Of a stretch of 64,000 nucleotides of DNA, positions 14,288-45,062 are shown piece by piece. The notes beneath the pieces were generated by a model. It had not been told where the DNA came from, did not search any database, and worked only from the letters and a program-made list of their open reading frames with translations. This DNA comes from a virus. The stretch is taken from positions 33,607 through 97,606 of IMG/VR virus record IMGVR_UViG_3300017763_000005; one strand, given 5' to 3'. Within the stretch, counting starts at the first letter, position 1. Each line of letters starts with the position of its first letter. A program made the position numbers and the translations under genes.

Positions 14288-14316
14288 ATTATACCATAGT
14301 TGGGAGCAGTTGTAAA
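14288..14316 (-). promoter_or_regulatory. Sigma70-type promoter
   Basis: TTTACA (14316-14311), 17-base spacer, TATAAT (14293-14288) with TATGG extension on the minus strand. Drives the small genes from 14260 leftward. Immediately preceded by the repeated AT-rich element at 14317-14365. Confidence 0.85.
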
Positions 14317-27129: not shown

Positions 27130-27290
27130 TTTCTATTGTCCTCTAATTGTAATAGTGTTATCCATATTAATAGCAATAAGAATCCCCACATGCTATTTAG
27201 TGTTTGTAAAAGTGGATACATAAAATCATATCCAAAAAGTACTGAGGATACAACTGTTAATCCAAATATTCCAGTTAATAATCTCATCAT
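27126..27290 (-). CDS. Small two-helix membrane protein
   Basis: 54 residues (MMRLLTGIFGLTVVSSVLFG, then WGFLLLLIWITLLQL) with two hydrophobic helices and a charged end (EDNRK). Both junctions are ATGA overlaps (27287-27290 and 27126-27129), which makes the reading frame credible despite its size. Function unknown. Confidence 0.6.
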   Translation of the reverse strand: MMRLLTGIFGLTVVSSVLFGYDFMYPLLQTLNSMWGFLLLLIWITLLQLEDNRK

Positions 27291-27574
27291 GTTATAATTT
27301 TGTTCTTAGGTGCAACAAGTCCAGTATCCATTTGCCTTACCTGATCGACTAACTCGTCGACTGGATCAACTGTGAATACAATAAAGTTTTTAGGAATAGT
27401 GATTCCATCTTTTGCTTTTGTATAAGCCATGAAAGGCATAAATCCAATTTTGCCTTCACCAGCTGGTATTAAAGAATAGCCATCAGTAATAGTAACATCG
27501 CTGCCATTATCTACTACTTTGCCAATTACTTCCTCTCCTGAGGATAATCTTACTAGTTTCATATTTTTCTCCAT
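27287..27574 (-). CDS. Sm-like fold small protein, copy 1
   Basis: 95 residues. MKLVRLSSGEEVIGKVVDNG resembles the Sm1 strand pattern (L-x-x-G-x-x-x-x-G) and is followed by IGFMPFMAYTKAKDGITI and FIVFTVDPVDELVDQVRQM. The same layout appears in 42046-42429 (HFKLMNGEEIIGLL, then SAWFPFSED and IIQHVPIAESIKD), so the two look like paralogues. Internal Met5 is an alternative start. Directly behind the promoter at 27583. RNA binding is inferred from the fold only. Confidence 0.55.
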   Translation of the reverse strand: MEKNMKLVRLSSGEEVIGKVVDNGSDVTITDGYSLIPAGEGKIGFMPFMAYTKAKDGITIPKNFIVFTVDPVDELVDQVRQMDTGLVAPKNKIIT

Positions 27575-33364: not shown

Positions 33365-33619
33365 TTAAGACTCTTCAGTTGATTCAACTTCAGGTACTTC
33401 ACCTTCTGGTTGATCTTCACCTTTTGGAGCAGCAGCTTCTAAGAATTTTACAACTCTATTTCTTAAGCTTCCAACTGCTTCAAGTTCAGGACCTTCAAAC
33501 CCGCCTCTCTTTGAACACAAATCAATGATTTGTACCATAGTGGCGATATCTTGAAGACCAAGCTGAACTGGTTCTTCTACTACAGTCTCAACGTTTTCGT
33601 TATTCACGTCTTCTGACAT
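33365..33619 (-). CDS. Small acidic conserved protein between gp45 and gp44
   Basis: 84 residues, very acidic, with an ordered middle (LGLQDIATMVQIIDLCSKRG, GSLRNRVVKFLEAAAP) and disordered acidic ends. A protein of this type lies next to gp45 in T4-like marine phages. A late element lies upstream at 33688, and an AGGAGA ribosome site precedes the ATG. Function unknown; a sliding-clamp or late-transcription partner is conceivable. Confidence 0.65.
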   Translation of the reverse strand: MSEDVNNENVETVVEEPVQLGLQDIATMVQIIDLCSKRGGFEGPELEAVGSLRNRVVKFLEAAAPKGEDQPEGEVPEVESTEES

Positions 33620-38202: not shown

Positions 38203-38231
38203 ATTATACCATAGTTCAGCGCATATGTAAA
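38203..38231 (-). promoter_or_regulatory. Sigma70-type promoter for the VWA metallopeptidase gene
   Basis: TTTACA (38231-38226), 17-base spacer, TATAAT (38208-38203) with TATGG. Preceded by repeat copy 3 and the tRNA gene. Confidence 0.85.
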
Positions 38232-41142: not shown

Positions 41143-41324
41143 GCTTGTTTTGCGAGACTCATCATGCGTTTTTGAGCTTTCATAATTCGCCTTCCAGCTA
41201 ATTTAATCTTTTCCATTTTAGCAGCAATGACTACTCTATGGACTTTACGCTTTTCTTCACGTTGAGTTCTTTTCTTCATAAGACGCATATGTCTTAGATT
41301 TTGTTTTGTGCTTACTTTTTTCAT
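41139..41324 (-). CDS. Small very basic protein
   Basis: 61 residues, about one third Lys/Arg (LRHMRLMKKRTQREEKRKVH), helical, no cysteines. One-base junction with gp55 and ATGA overlap with gp47. Likely binds nucleic acid or an acidic partner; no family recognised. Confidence 0.6.
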   Translation of the reverse strand: MKKVSTKQNLRHMRLMKKRTQREEKRKVHRVVIAAKMEKIKLAGRRIMKAQKRMMSLAKQA

Positions 41325-41899
41325 TACATAAATAACTCGAGTTTTTCTTTCTCTCGTTTCTTCTCCTCTTTTGCAAATTGTTTAATAGCTTCATCTTTTG
41401 TACGTATAGTACCAATCCTTTGTCTTAATGTATCAACATAAGCCATTGTTTCTTCAGCACCTTCGTTATCCATACCCATAGCAACAAAGTCTTCAATACC
41501 CATTTTCTCAATGAACTTAAACTTGATATCTTGTTGTTTCTTTTCTTTGGTGATTCTACGAATAAATGCAAAATAGCATATTTGAGTAAAGTATGAGAAT
41601 GCATTTGGTTTGCCTGTTCTTGTAGCAGTTTCGATATTATAATTACCAATTGCTCTTAAACAGTTTTCAACTGCATCCATTACCATTTCTTCTCGATATG
41701 TGTACCTCACGAAGTTCGGTCTGTGAGACAGTCCTTCTGAGATTCTTATAAAACATCTTGCAATATAATCAGGAACTGTAGGTACTGGCTTATCAGCTTT
41801 TCTGCATGCATGAGCTTCTACAGCATAATCCATAACGGCTTCAGAGAATTCTCTGTTATTGACGTAATGAGGTTTATCTTTTGGTTTAATTTGAGCCAT
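41324..41899 (-). CDS. 55: Late-transcription sigma factor gp55
   Basis: 191 residues. RRITKEKKQQDIKFKF and NAFSYFTQICYFAF resemble the region-2-like core of T4 gp55, and FSEAVMDYAVEAHACR the N-terminal region. It directs host RNA polymerase to TATAAATA late promoters, which occur throughout the structural genes of this window. The tail ends EKEKLELFM, a short hydrophobic-acidic end consistent with clamp binding. Own promoter at 41919. Confidence 0.92.
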   Translation of the reverse strand: MAQIKPKDKPHYVNNREFSEAVMDYAVEAHACRKADKPVPTVPDYIARCFIRISEGLSHRPNFVRYTYREEMVMDAVENCLRAIGNYNIETATRTGKPNAFSYFTQICYFAFIRRITKEKKQQDIKFKFIEKMGIEDFVAMGMDNEGAEETMAYVDTLRQRIGTIRTKDEAIKQFAKEEKKREKEKLELFM

Positions 41900-41918: not shown

Positions 41919-41947
41919 TTATTATACCATACTTTCAGTCAAATGTA
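41919..41947 (-). promoter_or_regulatory. Sigma70-type promoter for gp55-47-46
   Basis: TTTACA (41947-41942), 17-base spacer, TATAAT (41924-41919) with TATGG. The 35 bases further upstream are shared with an oppositely directed promoter at 41983. Confidence 0.85.
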
Positions 41948-41982
41948 AACGATTAATTTATTTTAATTATTTTCACAAAAAA

Positions 41983-42011
41983 CGTTTACAAATGCTTGTT
42001 TTTATGGTATA
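41983..42011 (+). promoter_or_regulatory. Plus-strand sigma70-type promoter, antisense to the Sm-like/uvsW unit
   Basis: TTTACA (41983-41988), 17-base spacer, TATAAT (42006-42011) with TATGG, preceded by ATTATTTTCACAAAAAACG as in the minus-strand promoter at 14288. The only plus-strand member of the series. No plus-strand gene of credible composition follows, so the RNA would run antisense to the genes from 42046. See findings. Confidence 0.75.
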
Positions 42012-42045
42012 ATATATTAACACCCGGAGCGGTAGAGGTATAGGA

Positions 42046-42429
42046 TTAATGTATTGTCCTCTTCGCATCAGGTATCAGATCAGCGTAATCAGAACTTAAA
42101 CTGTCTTCGTACTCTTTTAAGAGTTCTTCATCAGTTCGAGTATCAGGTGGGCTGATCGGTTTATCCATCTTAAGAGCAAAGTCAACATATGTATCTTTTA
42201 TAGACTCTGCTATTGGTACATGCTGTATTATACTGCTCTTAAGTACTTTAAATTGTTTATCCTCTGAGAATGGAAACCATGCAGAGAATTGTATACCACC
42301 AAGAAGACTTGGATTGATTCTTACTGGTCGTTCAATAATGTAATTATCGTCATTCTTAATTGCAAGTAATCCGATAATCTCTTCACCATTCATGAGTTTA
42401 AAATGTCTTATATTTAATCCTGTATTCAT
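42046..42429 (-). CDS. Sm-like fold protein, copy 2
   Basis: 127 residues; HFKLMNGEEIIGLLAIKND, then GGIQFSAWFPFSED and IIQHVPIAESIKDTYVDFAL share layout with 27287-27574. The C-terminus is longer and acidic (DTRTDEELLKEYEDSLSS). A TATAAATA lies exactly 5 bases ahead of its ATG with no obvious Shine-Dalgarno. Sits between uvsW and gp55; RNA or assembly chaperone function is only a guess from the fold. Confidence 0.6.
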   Translation of the reverse strand: MNTGLNIRHFKLMNGEEIIGLLAIKNDDNYIIERPVRINPSLLGGIQFSAWFPFSEDKQFKVLKSSIIQHVPIAESIKDTYVDFALKMDKPISPPDTRTDEELLKEYEDSLSSDYADLIPDAKRTIH

Positions 42430-42434
42430 ATTAT

Positions 42435-42442
42435 TATTTATA
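42435..42442 (-). promoter_or_regulatory. TATAAATA element 5 bases ahead of an ATG
   Basis: Minus-strand TATAAATA followed by ATAAT and ATG. At T4 late-promoter spacing the transcript would begin at or next to the ATG, which would give a leaderless mRNA. AT-rich, so chance is possible. Confidence 0.4.
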
Positions 42443-43934
42443 TGTTTATATCGTACATCTTATAGTTAAATCTTTCTTTTGAGTATATTTTAATTCTTTC
42501 AGCTGCATGCTGTAATGTATAGTTCTTTTGTGTCTTCCAATGTAAGTCATCTGCTATATCATATATCTTAGTATCTGTTCCATCTTCACTCTTCCTCAAC
42601 CCTCTTCCGATCGATTGAAGTACTCTAATTTGGCTTTTACTTGGGCTAGCAAAGATGATGTTATGTAAATTGCGAATGTTAATACCAGTAGAAAAAGTCC
42701 CAATACTTGCAACGATAATTGCGTCTTTCTCTTTCTCGGTAATCTCACGGACTGATTCTCTTGTGTCAACATCTGTTTCTCCTGATACGTAAAAGAGTTT
42801 TCTCTTATCTGGCATCTTTGTTTGTAATAATGAATGCAATGGTTTACCATGCTTGTCTACGTAATTAAACAATATTAAAGTATTGCCTTTTTGATCTAAT
42901 GCTAAATTACTTATAAATTTGTTTCTTGGTTCGTACCTTACAATAAAATCTAACTCTTGTTGATATTTCTCTTTTACTATCTGTTTGCAATACTCTTCTT
43001 TATATTTAAGTATTAATATATCTATATTTAATTGAGCCAGATCGTCATTGTCCATTAACTCTTTTGTAGTAGTTACTTTATATACTGGACCAAACAATCC
43101 TTCTAATACTAATTGATGTGTTTGAGTTCCATCTAATGTTCCAGTAGTACCAATACGATATTTTGCTTCTGTACATTTCTCTAATATACTTGTTAATGAT
43201 TTTGCTTTAAAGTTATGTGCTTCGTCTCCTATGACCATACCAAAACTATTAAACCAACTTGCTGGTAATTTATATATTGATTGCCAAGTGGATATAATAA
43301 TTCTTTGAGATACTCCAATTTTTTCTCGGCCAGAATATATTCTATGACAGTTTTCTTCATGAGACCATGTATCCTTACGAGAGTAGTCTCCGAAATCAGA
43401 GTACATTTGCTCTACCAATGATGTCGTAGGTACTATCAGCAAAACGTTACCATCAAAAACATCTAGGTAATATCTTATAGCTAAATATATGATTAAACTC
43501 TTCCCAGAAGCAGTTGGTGATAACAGTAAGGATTTCTCTTGAGAAAGTGTGTGCGAGAGTCCCTCCAATTGATATTGTCTAGGTATTATATCAACTCCGT
43601 TCACAGAAAGGGACAGATTTGATAATAGGCCTTCTAGGTCAGGGCTGAGGGATGATTCGAGTGCACCATATTGCGGCGATTCTATCACTTCTAACTTATA
43701 ATCCCTCACGTCACAAAACTCACGCAAATATTTGTGAAGTCCGCAGTATAATGTTTTCTTTCTACTATCAAATAATCTTATTTTACCGTCCCACATACGA
43801 TTACGATATGCTGGCATAAATTTATACCCAGGCACAAAGAATTGGAAATGCTCTGATAATTCCATTTCAATAGACGGGTCGGTTTGTATGTTTAAGAAGA
43901 CTTCGTTCTTCTTTTGAATAGTAATGGTTTCCAT
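42438..43934 (-). CDS. uvsW: Recombination/branch-migration helicase UvsW
   Basis: 498 residues. After an N-terminal DNA-binding region (FVPGYKFMPAYRNRMWDGK), motif I is LLSPTASGKSLIIYL, motif II is MVIGDEAHNFKAK (DEAH), motif III is IGTTGTLDG and motif VI is QSIGRGLRKSEDG. An SF2 helicase that resolves R-loops and branched DNA and controls origin switching in T4. Eight bases separate it from the Sm-like gene. Confidence 0.95.
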   Translation of the reverse strand: METITIQKKNEVFLNIQTDPSIEMELSEHFQFFVPGYKFMPAYRNRMWDGKIRLFDSRKKTLYCGLHKYLREFCDVRDYKLEVIESPQYGALESSLSPDLEGLLSNLSLSVNGVDIIPRQYQLEGLSHTLSQEKSLLLSPTASGKSLIIYLAIRYYLDVFDGNVLLIVPTTSLVEQMYSDFGDYSRKDTWSHEENCHRIYSGREKIGVSQRIIISTWQSIYKLPASWFNSFGMVIGDEAHNFKAKSLTSILEKCTEAKYRIGTTGTLDGTQTHQLVLEGLFGPVYKVTTTKELMDNDDLAQLNIDILILKYKEEYCKQIVKEKYQQELDFIVRYEPRNKFISNLALDQKGNTLILFNYVDKHGKPLHSLLQTKMPDKRKLFYVSGETDVDTRESVREITEKEKDAIIVASIGTFSTGINIRNLHNIIFASPSKSQIRVLQSIGRGLRKSEDGTDTKIYDIADDLHWKTQKNYTLQHAAERIKIYSKERFNYKMYDINI

Positions 43935-43935
43935 A

Positions 43936-44100
43936 TTACCAATTATGTATAATATTTCCTATAATAAAAAAAGCGCATACAACGTTTACTAAAACAACAA
44001 AGGTTCTTATTACAGCAACATAGTTATCGTAATCTTCTGTTTTATCGTCACTAAATGAACCTATAGAGTATTTCCATATAGTCCAAAATTTAGATACCAC
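43936..44100 (-). CDS. Small membrane protein between uvsY and uvsW
   Basis: 54 residues from a GTG at 44100 (an in-frame TTG at 44121 would add 7). Starts VSKFWTIWKYSIGSFSDDK, a conserved-looking opening, then a membrane helix (TFVVLVNVVCAFFIIGNII). GGAG is 11 bases upstream of the GTG. Overlaps the end of uvsY by 11 bases. T4-like marine phages carry similar proteins at this place; function unknown. Confidence 0.6.
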   Translation of the reverse strand: MVSKFWTIWKYSIGSFSDDKTEDYDNYVAVIRTFVVLVNVVCAFFIIGNIIHNW

Positions 44101-44536
44101 TAGTAAACTTTCTCCACTCAATCATGTTCTTTATATTCTGATGTCTCCATTTGACATTCTCTAATATTTCTTTTAAAGTAGCACAAACTTCTTCTAGGTA
44201 TTGTATCTTAGCTTGATGTTCTTGAATTAATGGATCAGCATCATAGTATCTGTCCATATCGCCTTTTAAAACTGTAAGACCATTTAAAGGATCATAATCC
44301 CAACCTTTCTCATCAATTTCTTCTTTTGACATTTTGCCATTATAATGTAGCCACTTGTCTTTAAGCAAAACTTTAAAATCAAGTTCAGCCTTTTTAAGTT
44401 TCATTCTATTAACTGATAAAAGTTCTAAATATTTGCCGTGAAGTTTAGCGGAGTCTCTTGATGTCTCATCTAGATTCATTTCATCTATAATGGAATCAGT
44501 TTTCCACATATCTAAGATTTGTTGTAAATTATTCAT
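44090..44536 (-). CDS. uvsY: Recombination mediator UvsY
   Basis: 148 residues, all helical. LLSVNRMKLKKAELDFKVLL and CATLKEILENVKWRHQNIKN fit the UvsY pattern. It loads UvsX on gp32-covered DNA. Placed between uvsW and the capsid genes and behind its own promoter at 44543, as expected from T4-like synteny. Fewer hallmark residues than other core genes, so confidence relies on position too. Confidence 0.85.
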   Translation of the reverse strand: MNNLQQILDMWKTDSIIDEMNLDETSRDSAKLHGKYLELLSVNRMKLKKAELDFKVLLKDKWLHYNGKMSKEEIDEKGWDYDPLNGLTVLKGDMDRYYDADPLIQEHQAKIQYLEEVCATLKEILENVKWRHQNIKNMIEWRKFTSGI

Positions 44537-44542
44537 GTATAT

Positions 44543-44571
44543 ATTATACCATACTTTAGTGAAAATGTAAA
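44543..44571 (-). promoter_or_regulatory. Sigma70-type promoter for uvsY
   Basis: TTTACA (44571-44566), 17-base spacer, TATAAT (44548-44543) with TATGG. Only 6 bases separate the -10 from the uvsY ATG. Confidence 0.85.
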
Positions 44572-45054: not shown

Positions 45055-45062
45055 TATTTATA
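45055..45062 (-). promoter_or_regulatory. T4-type late promoter element ahead of the tube-like gene
   Basis: TATAAATA, then GATAT, then the ATG at 45049, the same 5-base spacing as at 42435. A leaderless transcript is possible; AAGGTG lies further upstream. Confidence 0.55.

Follow-up and report, generated by a model that had tools for sequence, protein, structure and literature searches.

In marine T4-like phages, a non-coding promoter of the early type occupies a fixed place at the 3′ end of the uvsW transcription unit, on the strand opposite to the genes, and its conservation gives good support to its being under selection. A functional rightward non-coding transcript against the Sm-like/uvsW unit is strongly supported as its predicted product. 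We tentatively read the element as an early cis-antisense promoter that would delay the uvsW unit, a reading to which we give somewhat less than an even chance. The promoter lies in a 64,000-nt stretch of the IMG/VR record IMGVR_UViG_3300017763_000005, hereafter the window, which covers positions 33607–97606 of the 97,606-base record. The features of the window that are relevant here are as follows.

41324–41899, minus strand: gene for a gp55-type late sigma factor (phrog_234, E 6e-50)
41921–41949, minus strand: early-type promoter of gp55, divergent (motif match)
41966–41984, plus strand: upstream box ATTATTTTCACAAAAAACG, common to some minus-strand early promoters
41985–42013, plus strand: lone early-type promoter, exact, with −35 TTTACA (41985–41990), a 17-nt spacer ending in TATGG, and −10 TATAAT (42008–42013)
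42020–42044, plus strand: predicted transcript 5′ end, rich in G (ACACCCGGAGCGGTAGAGGTATAGG), with conservation that reaches the Sm-like stop codon in the window's clade
42046–42429, minus strand: Sm-like gene (127 aa), last of the uvsW unit, of the T4-GC 139 family in S-PM2 and P-SSM2
42438–43934, minus strand: uvsW helicase (UvsW_N, DNA helicase)
44090–44536, minus strand: uvsY recombination mediator (annotation matches)
44543–44571, minus strand: early-type promoter of uvsY (motif match)

The plus-strand promoter belongs to the early (sigma70-like) series of these phages by its −35 box (TTTACA/TTGACA/TGTACA), its spacer (16–17 nt), and its −10 box (TATAAT type). The first-pass annotation had described it as a perfect member of the series, which is exact, and as a lone rightward promoter among leftward genes, which was confirmed for the whole record. 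The motif TTTACA-N15-19-TATAAT had 14 matches in the window against 0.41 expected, with only 41985–42013 on the plus strand, and the exact TTTACA-17-TATAAT form occurred 21 times in the record, 20 times on the minus strand and once on the plus strand. All major nearby ORFs are on the minus strand. Each of the 20 minus-strand promoters had an ORF of 71 or more codons behind it at a distance of 6–55 nt, whereas the plus-strand promoter was the sole case among the 21 with no ORF of at least 40 codons within 400 nt. Its transcript is predicted to start rightward, as had been proposed, at 42019/42020 (6–7 nt past TATAAT), slightly further right than the earlier estimate of about 42018. The fraction of G in the first 25 transcribed bases was 0.40, compared with a mean of 0.154 for the 20 minus-strand promoters, none of which exceeded 20%. 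For 9 of these 20 early-type promoters, a start codon was found 6–10 nt past the −10 box (e.g., at window positions 44571, 30183, 27611, 13207, and 3321 on the minus strand), and genes including uvsY and that for DNA polymerase may be translated from leaderless mRNAs.

The upstream box ATTATTTTCACAAAAAACG had been reported as shared with the minus-strand promoters. This holds in full for the promoter at 14288–14316 and nearly so for that at 38203–38231, whereas the other promoters carry only parts of it. The box is part of a phage-wide ATTTTCA/TGAAAAT motif upstream of the −35 boxes, which occurred 10 times in the 60 nt before the 21 promoters, compared with 0.53 occurrences at random. A ATTATTTTCAC...GTGAAAATAAT-like motif was observed ahead of the −35 box at 14316, 35917, and 38231 (minus strand) and at 41966–41984 (plus strand), and it looks like a shared regulator site of several early promoters.

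A transcript from this promoter would enter the Sm-like gene tail first and oppose uvsW if it reads on. By this geometry, the promoter would direct an RNA complementary to the opposing gene, as in cis-antisense RNAs. The Sm-like label itself is reasonable; the Pfam family Sm_like matched four of eight family members (best 1.4e-10) with the window's own protein below the cut-off, and PDB 3by7 also matched. A second small protein of the same PHROG (527) is encoded at 27287–27574 and has its own early promoter. ATAAATA boxes were observed on the minus strand at 42435–42441 and 45055–45061, in each case 5 nt ahead of a start codon (of the Sm-like gene and gp19, respectively), and they are possibly late promoters of leaderless genes. 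As ATAAATA was not above chance in the window, the box before the Sm-like gene was not used as evidence.

The promoter was conserved in the relatives. Among 79 IMG/VR loci with a close gp55, read upstream of that gene, 76 had the exact plus-strand promoter with a 17-nt spacer (−35 TTTACA/TTGACA/TGTACA) and one more had it with a single-base difference; of the remaining two, one (L035) stops short of the site and the other (L064) has the promoter further away. Downstream of the −10 box, these loci shared a conserved stretch of the ..CCGGGGAGGGTAGAGGTATACTA.. type ending at the Sm-like stop codon. The last codons of the Sm-like gene (Thr-Ile-His-stop) varied synonymously among relatives, which indicates constraint there on the protein, and third-base conservation deeper inside its 3′ end was only slightly raised (0.65–0.70 vs 0.60) and thus gives no transcript length. 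With a profile of the Sm-like gene, this gene was found in 313 of 329 loci and the promoter in 270 of these 313, with its −10 box mostly 20–45 nt beyond the Sm-like stop codon. After removal of redundancy, 229 of 246 loci, including those of S-PM2, P-SSM2, and HTVC008M, carried the promoter, whereas 8.5 would be expected from shuffled sequence. The predicted reverse-strand start lies at about 84,439–84,440 in S-PM2 (AJ630128), 124,805–124,806 in P-SSM2 (AY939844), and 80,260–80,261 in HTVC008M (KC465899). The loci are mostly metagenomic contigs. A sigma70-type promoter was present in the same place and direction in C48C1 relatives, cyanophages, and HTVC008M-like phages, while classic Straboviridae (Vibrio CZ01 and Escherichia G50) and RL2RES were without this gene order around gp55. 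Judged by this conservation, the promoter is clearly under selection in hundreds of marine T4-like phages.

The promoter is often the only, or nearly the only, counter-strand promoter of its type in a record. Counted with the motif relevant to each phage, the matches on the gene strand and the other strand were 22:1 (G001), 18:1 (G002), 14:2 (G003), 4:1 (S-PM2), 8:1 (P-SSM2), 16:1 (G007), 12:2 (G008), 6:1 (G009), 9:1 (G010), and 11:1 (G011). Where the context was checked, the counter-strand match was this promoter, with two exceptions, namely the second hit in G003 and the hit in C48C1. The former (G003:53565–53593) is a TTGACA-17-TATAAT sequence upstream of a tail-tube-like gene, pointing away from it. 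The latter is a lone reverse match inside a structural gene, which differs from the element because the copy of the element in C48C1 has TTGACG. The lone promoter and the gp55 promoter had the same −35 type in 26 of 57 non-redundant cases, compared with 11.6 on permutation (maximum of 22 in 5000 permutations). This agreement suggests that the lone promoter is probably read by the same polymerase form as the gp55 promoter and is maintained as that form changes. In P-SSM2 (L173:2930–3040), inspection by eye showed that the gp55 promoter (TTGTCA-17-TATAAT) overlaps the antisense promoter (TTGACA) at the −35 boxes, an overlap that would make the two promoters mutually exclusive.

The pairing with gp55 is not what fixes the position of the promoter. 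The distance from the promoter to gp55 exceeded 250 nt in 33 of 222 loci, frequently because one or two complete genes lay between them, and the promoter still adjoined the Sm-like gene; its description as half of a divergent pair with gp55, the conservation of which we checked, is weakened accordingly. In three loci (L151, L153, and L157), the Sm-like gene is followed by a further gene (218 aa in L153), and the promoter lies just behind the latter; in L141, a 193-aa gene lies downstream of the Sm-like gene and the promoter 28 nt behind it. A tandem duplication of about 220 bp (L084:1–515) contains two intact promoters with their start elements and a duplicated tail of the Sm-like gene. By these arrangements, the position of the promoter appears to be tied to the end of the uvsW unit, pointing back into the unit, and not to gp55.

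No protein product was found for the transcript, as the ORFs in relatives were short and varying (median of about 28 aa). The first-pass annotation had also suggested a short RNA with a 3′ end; candidates for an intrinsic terminator numbered 10 in 125 sequences and 9 in shuffled sequences, so neither a conserved terminator nor a conserved 3′ end marks a discrete small RNA. The Rfam covariance models gave no family match, and a similarity search with the bare intergenic DNA returned only unrelated chance matches. Two candidates were rejected. In a small ORF behind AGAGG...ATG, the ATG/GTG is complementary to the conserved His codon that precedes the Sm-like stop, and the frame closes at once in several loci (e.g., ATG TAG in L012 and L014). 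A minus-strand terminator of the uvsW unit is disfavoured by the wobble pairs, which in three clades favour the plus strand, and by the absence of a following U-run. No publication on an RNA at this site was found in a literature search that left out most subscription journals, and the lone counter-strand promoter behind uvsW appears to be undescribed so far.

The start site carries conserved structure. We distinguished the window's clade (A), C48C1-like phages (B), cyanophages (C), and HTVC008M-like phages (D). Clades B, C, and D have an inverted repeat with arms of about 5–6 nt. Its centre is at the expected start, in many cases at TGT, and the sequence of the repeat differs from phage to phage while the pairing is kept. 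Swapping the halves between phages lowered the stem score from 4.26 to 3.40 (sd 0.15) in clade B, from 4.72 to 4.30 (sd 0.13) in clade C, and from 4.22 to 3.59 (sd 0.11) in clade D, and this effect was gone when only the transcribed bases were counted. G.T was tolerated better than A.C in the three clades, which points to the non-template strand. As the repeat begins 1–2 bases past the −10 box, it would not be wholly in the RNA if transcription starts at the usual 6–8 nt, and we infer that it lies partly outside the RNA. Clade A has a short covarying hairpin just inside the transcript (3.77 vs 3.13 in the swap test, sd 0.16), in which G.U and A.C were not distinguished. The initial transcript in the relatives had mean fractions of 0.32 for G and 0.14 for C.

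We infer the early activity of the promoter, its antisense action on the uvsW unit, and its purpose as follows. Host RNA polymerase, unmodified or early-modified, would start at about 42020 and run back through the Sm-like gene towards uvsW, and the antisense RNA or head-on polymerases would hold the uvsW unit low while the early promoters are active. After the shut-off of these promoters and the change to late transcription directed by gp55, the block would lift and UvsW would be made. A regulatory antisense RNA or a switch between early and late states, both proposed in the first-pass annotation, may thus be at work. The window has an early-series promoter for uvsY and no further one ahead of uvsW; early read-through from uvsY into uvsW is thus plausible and would be a plausible target of the suppression, and an early opposing transcript would help to keep uvsW late. 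In T4, a late promoter drives the expression of UvsW, which unwinds the R-loops at origins (PMC3016281). The uvsY early promoter was seen in the window alone, and 1.9 kb would have to be transcribed to reach the uvsW start if there is no small stable product. Simple antisense transcription by itself does not require a conserved G-rich start or a start-site inverted repeat.

These start-site features bear on a credible but unlikely alternative, an R-loop replication origin, in which the transcript would stay annealed to the template and prime the leading strand, the R-loop would gain stability from its G-rich start and from the repeat in the displaced strand, and UvsW would later remove it. A T4 origin comprises a promoter whose transcript serves as an R-loop primer; at oriE this is an early promoter, and early synthesis in T4 begins mostly in regions of late genes (PMC3016281). 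The element resembles oriF, oriG, and oriE in being a promoter whose transcript would matter apart from any protein, and its uvsY/uvsW neighbourhood resembles that of oriF (PMC3016281). It is a unique geneless promoter, present universally where the uvsW/late-gene side borders on the gp55/replication-gene side; its initial transcript is G-rich in the window and in relatives; and the repeat in clades B, C, and D spans the start site, with the wobble preference on the non-template strand, and would resist re-annealing. Against an origin, no A+T-rich unwinding element was found (A+T of 0.66–0.69 in the 200 nt past the Sm-like stop, within a local range of 0.64–0.73), and six genomes showed no strand-composition switch at the site, a test that is weak for T4-type replication and a sign that supports rather than defines an origin. 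The element further differs from the T4 origins in that its transcription would run against the surrounding genes. We consider it rather unlikely that the site is a conserved transcription-primed origin of marine T4-like phages that combines a G-rich R-loop transcript and a self-complementary repeat in the displaced strand beside the gene of the helicase switching the origin off.

It is improbable that the element acts chiefly as a boundary, where a polymerase starting or paused at the promoter would stop uvsW-unit transcripts from entering the gp55-side unit or an overlapping duplex would set the 3′ ends. Such a role would fit the start-site repeat and the fixed position 20–45 nt behind the last stop codon of the unit, which the promoter retains where a different gene ends the unit. 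However, a hairpin in the minus-strand RNA is not favoured, since stem scores fall when A.C is allowed instead of G.U in clades B, C, and D (not in A). No U-run follows on the minus strand, and gp55 having its own promoter is no proof that read-through is harmful.

A trans-acting small RNA with its function in the first 30–40 nt (the 5′ hairpin and the G-rich stretch) is doubtful to a still greater degree. The start region is conserved and the hairpin covaries in the window's clade, where the first 56 nt of the window's transcript fold at −17.3 kcal/mol (z −2.2), but the individual folds are weak on average (mean z −1.1), the terminator and Rfam searches were negative, and the repeat of the other clades begins before the expected transcript start. 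A chance match or the scar of a lost plus-strand gene, the latter raised by the first-pass annotation, has only the lack of a downstream ORF in its favour and is refuted by the excess of loci over shuffled sequence and the counts of counter-strand promoters. The co-evolution of the −35 boxes also speaks against it, and the promoter is kept as its surroundings change, with no plus-strand gene at the site in any relative examined.

The early cis-antisense reading has partial parallels. Bacterial and phage operons can have antisense promoters at their 3′ ends, which act by antisense RNA or transcriptional interference; the element resembles them in geometry and position and differs in its depth of conservation and the repeat at its start site. 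From the early sigma70-like series of marine T4-like phages, whose −35/−10 motifs, spacing, and upstream box it shares, it is set apart by lying on the opposite strand with no ORF behind it and by a start that is rich in G and bears an inverted repeat or hairpin. CfrI, an antisense RNA of about 225 nt in cyanophage S-PM2 (PMC2984593, PMC12197685), is likewise a marine T4-like phage RNA that comes from the counter-strand and opposes a gene at its 3′ end. It is located at psbA and a homing endonuclease gene, and the literature examined contained no other confirmed antisense RNA from a marine T4-like phage; CfrI was experimentally shown, whereas the uvsW-unit element, recognised here by its sequence, was found in all clades examined.

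Marine T4-like phages occur in large numbers in the ocean, and how they control uvsW, late transcription, and the start of replication has received little study. A lone non-coding promoter that almost all of them retain marks a shared control point, and it makes two questions, early UvsW silencing and the site of replication start, accessible in the cultured phages S-PM2, P-SSM2, and HTVC008M.
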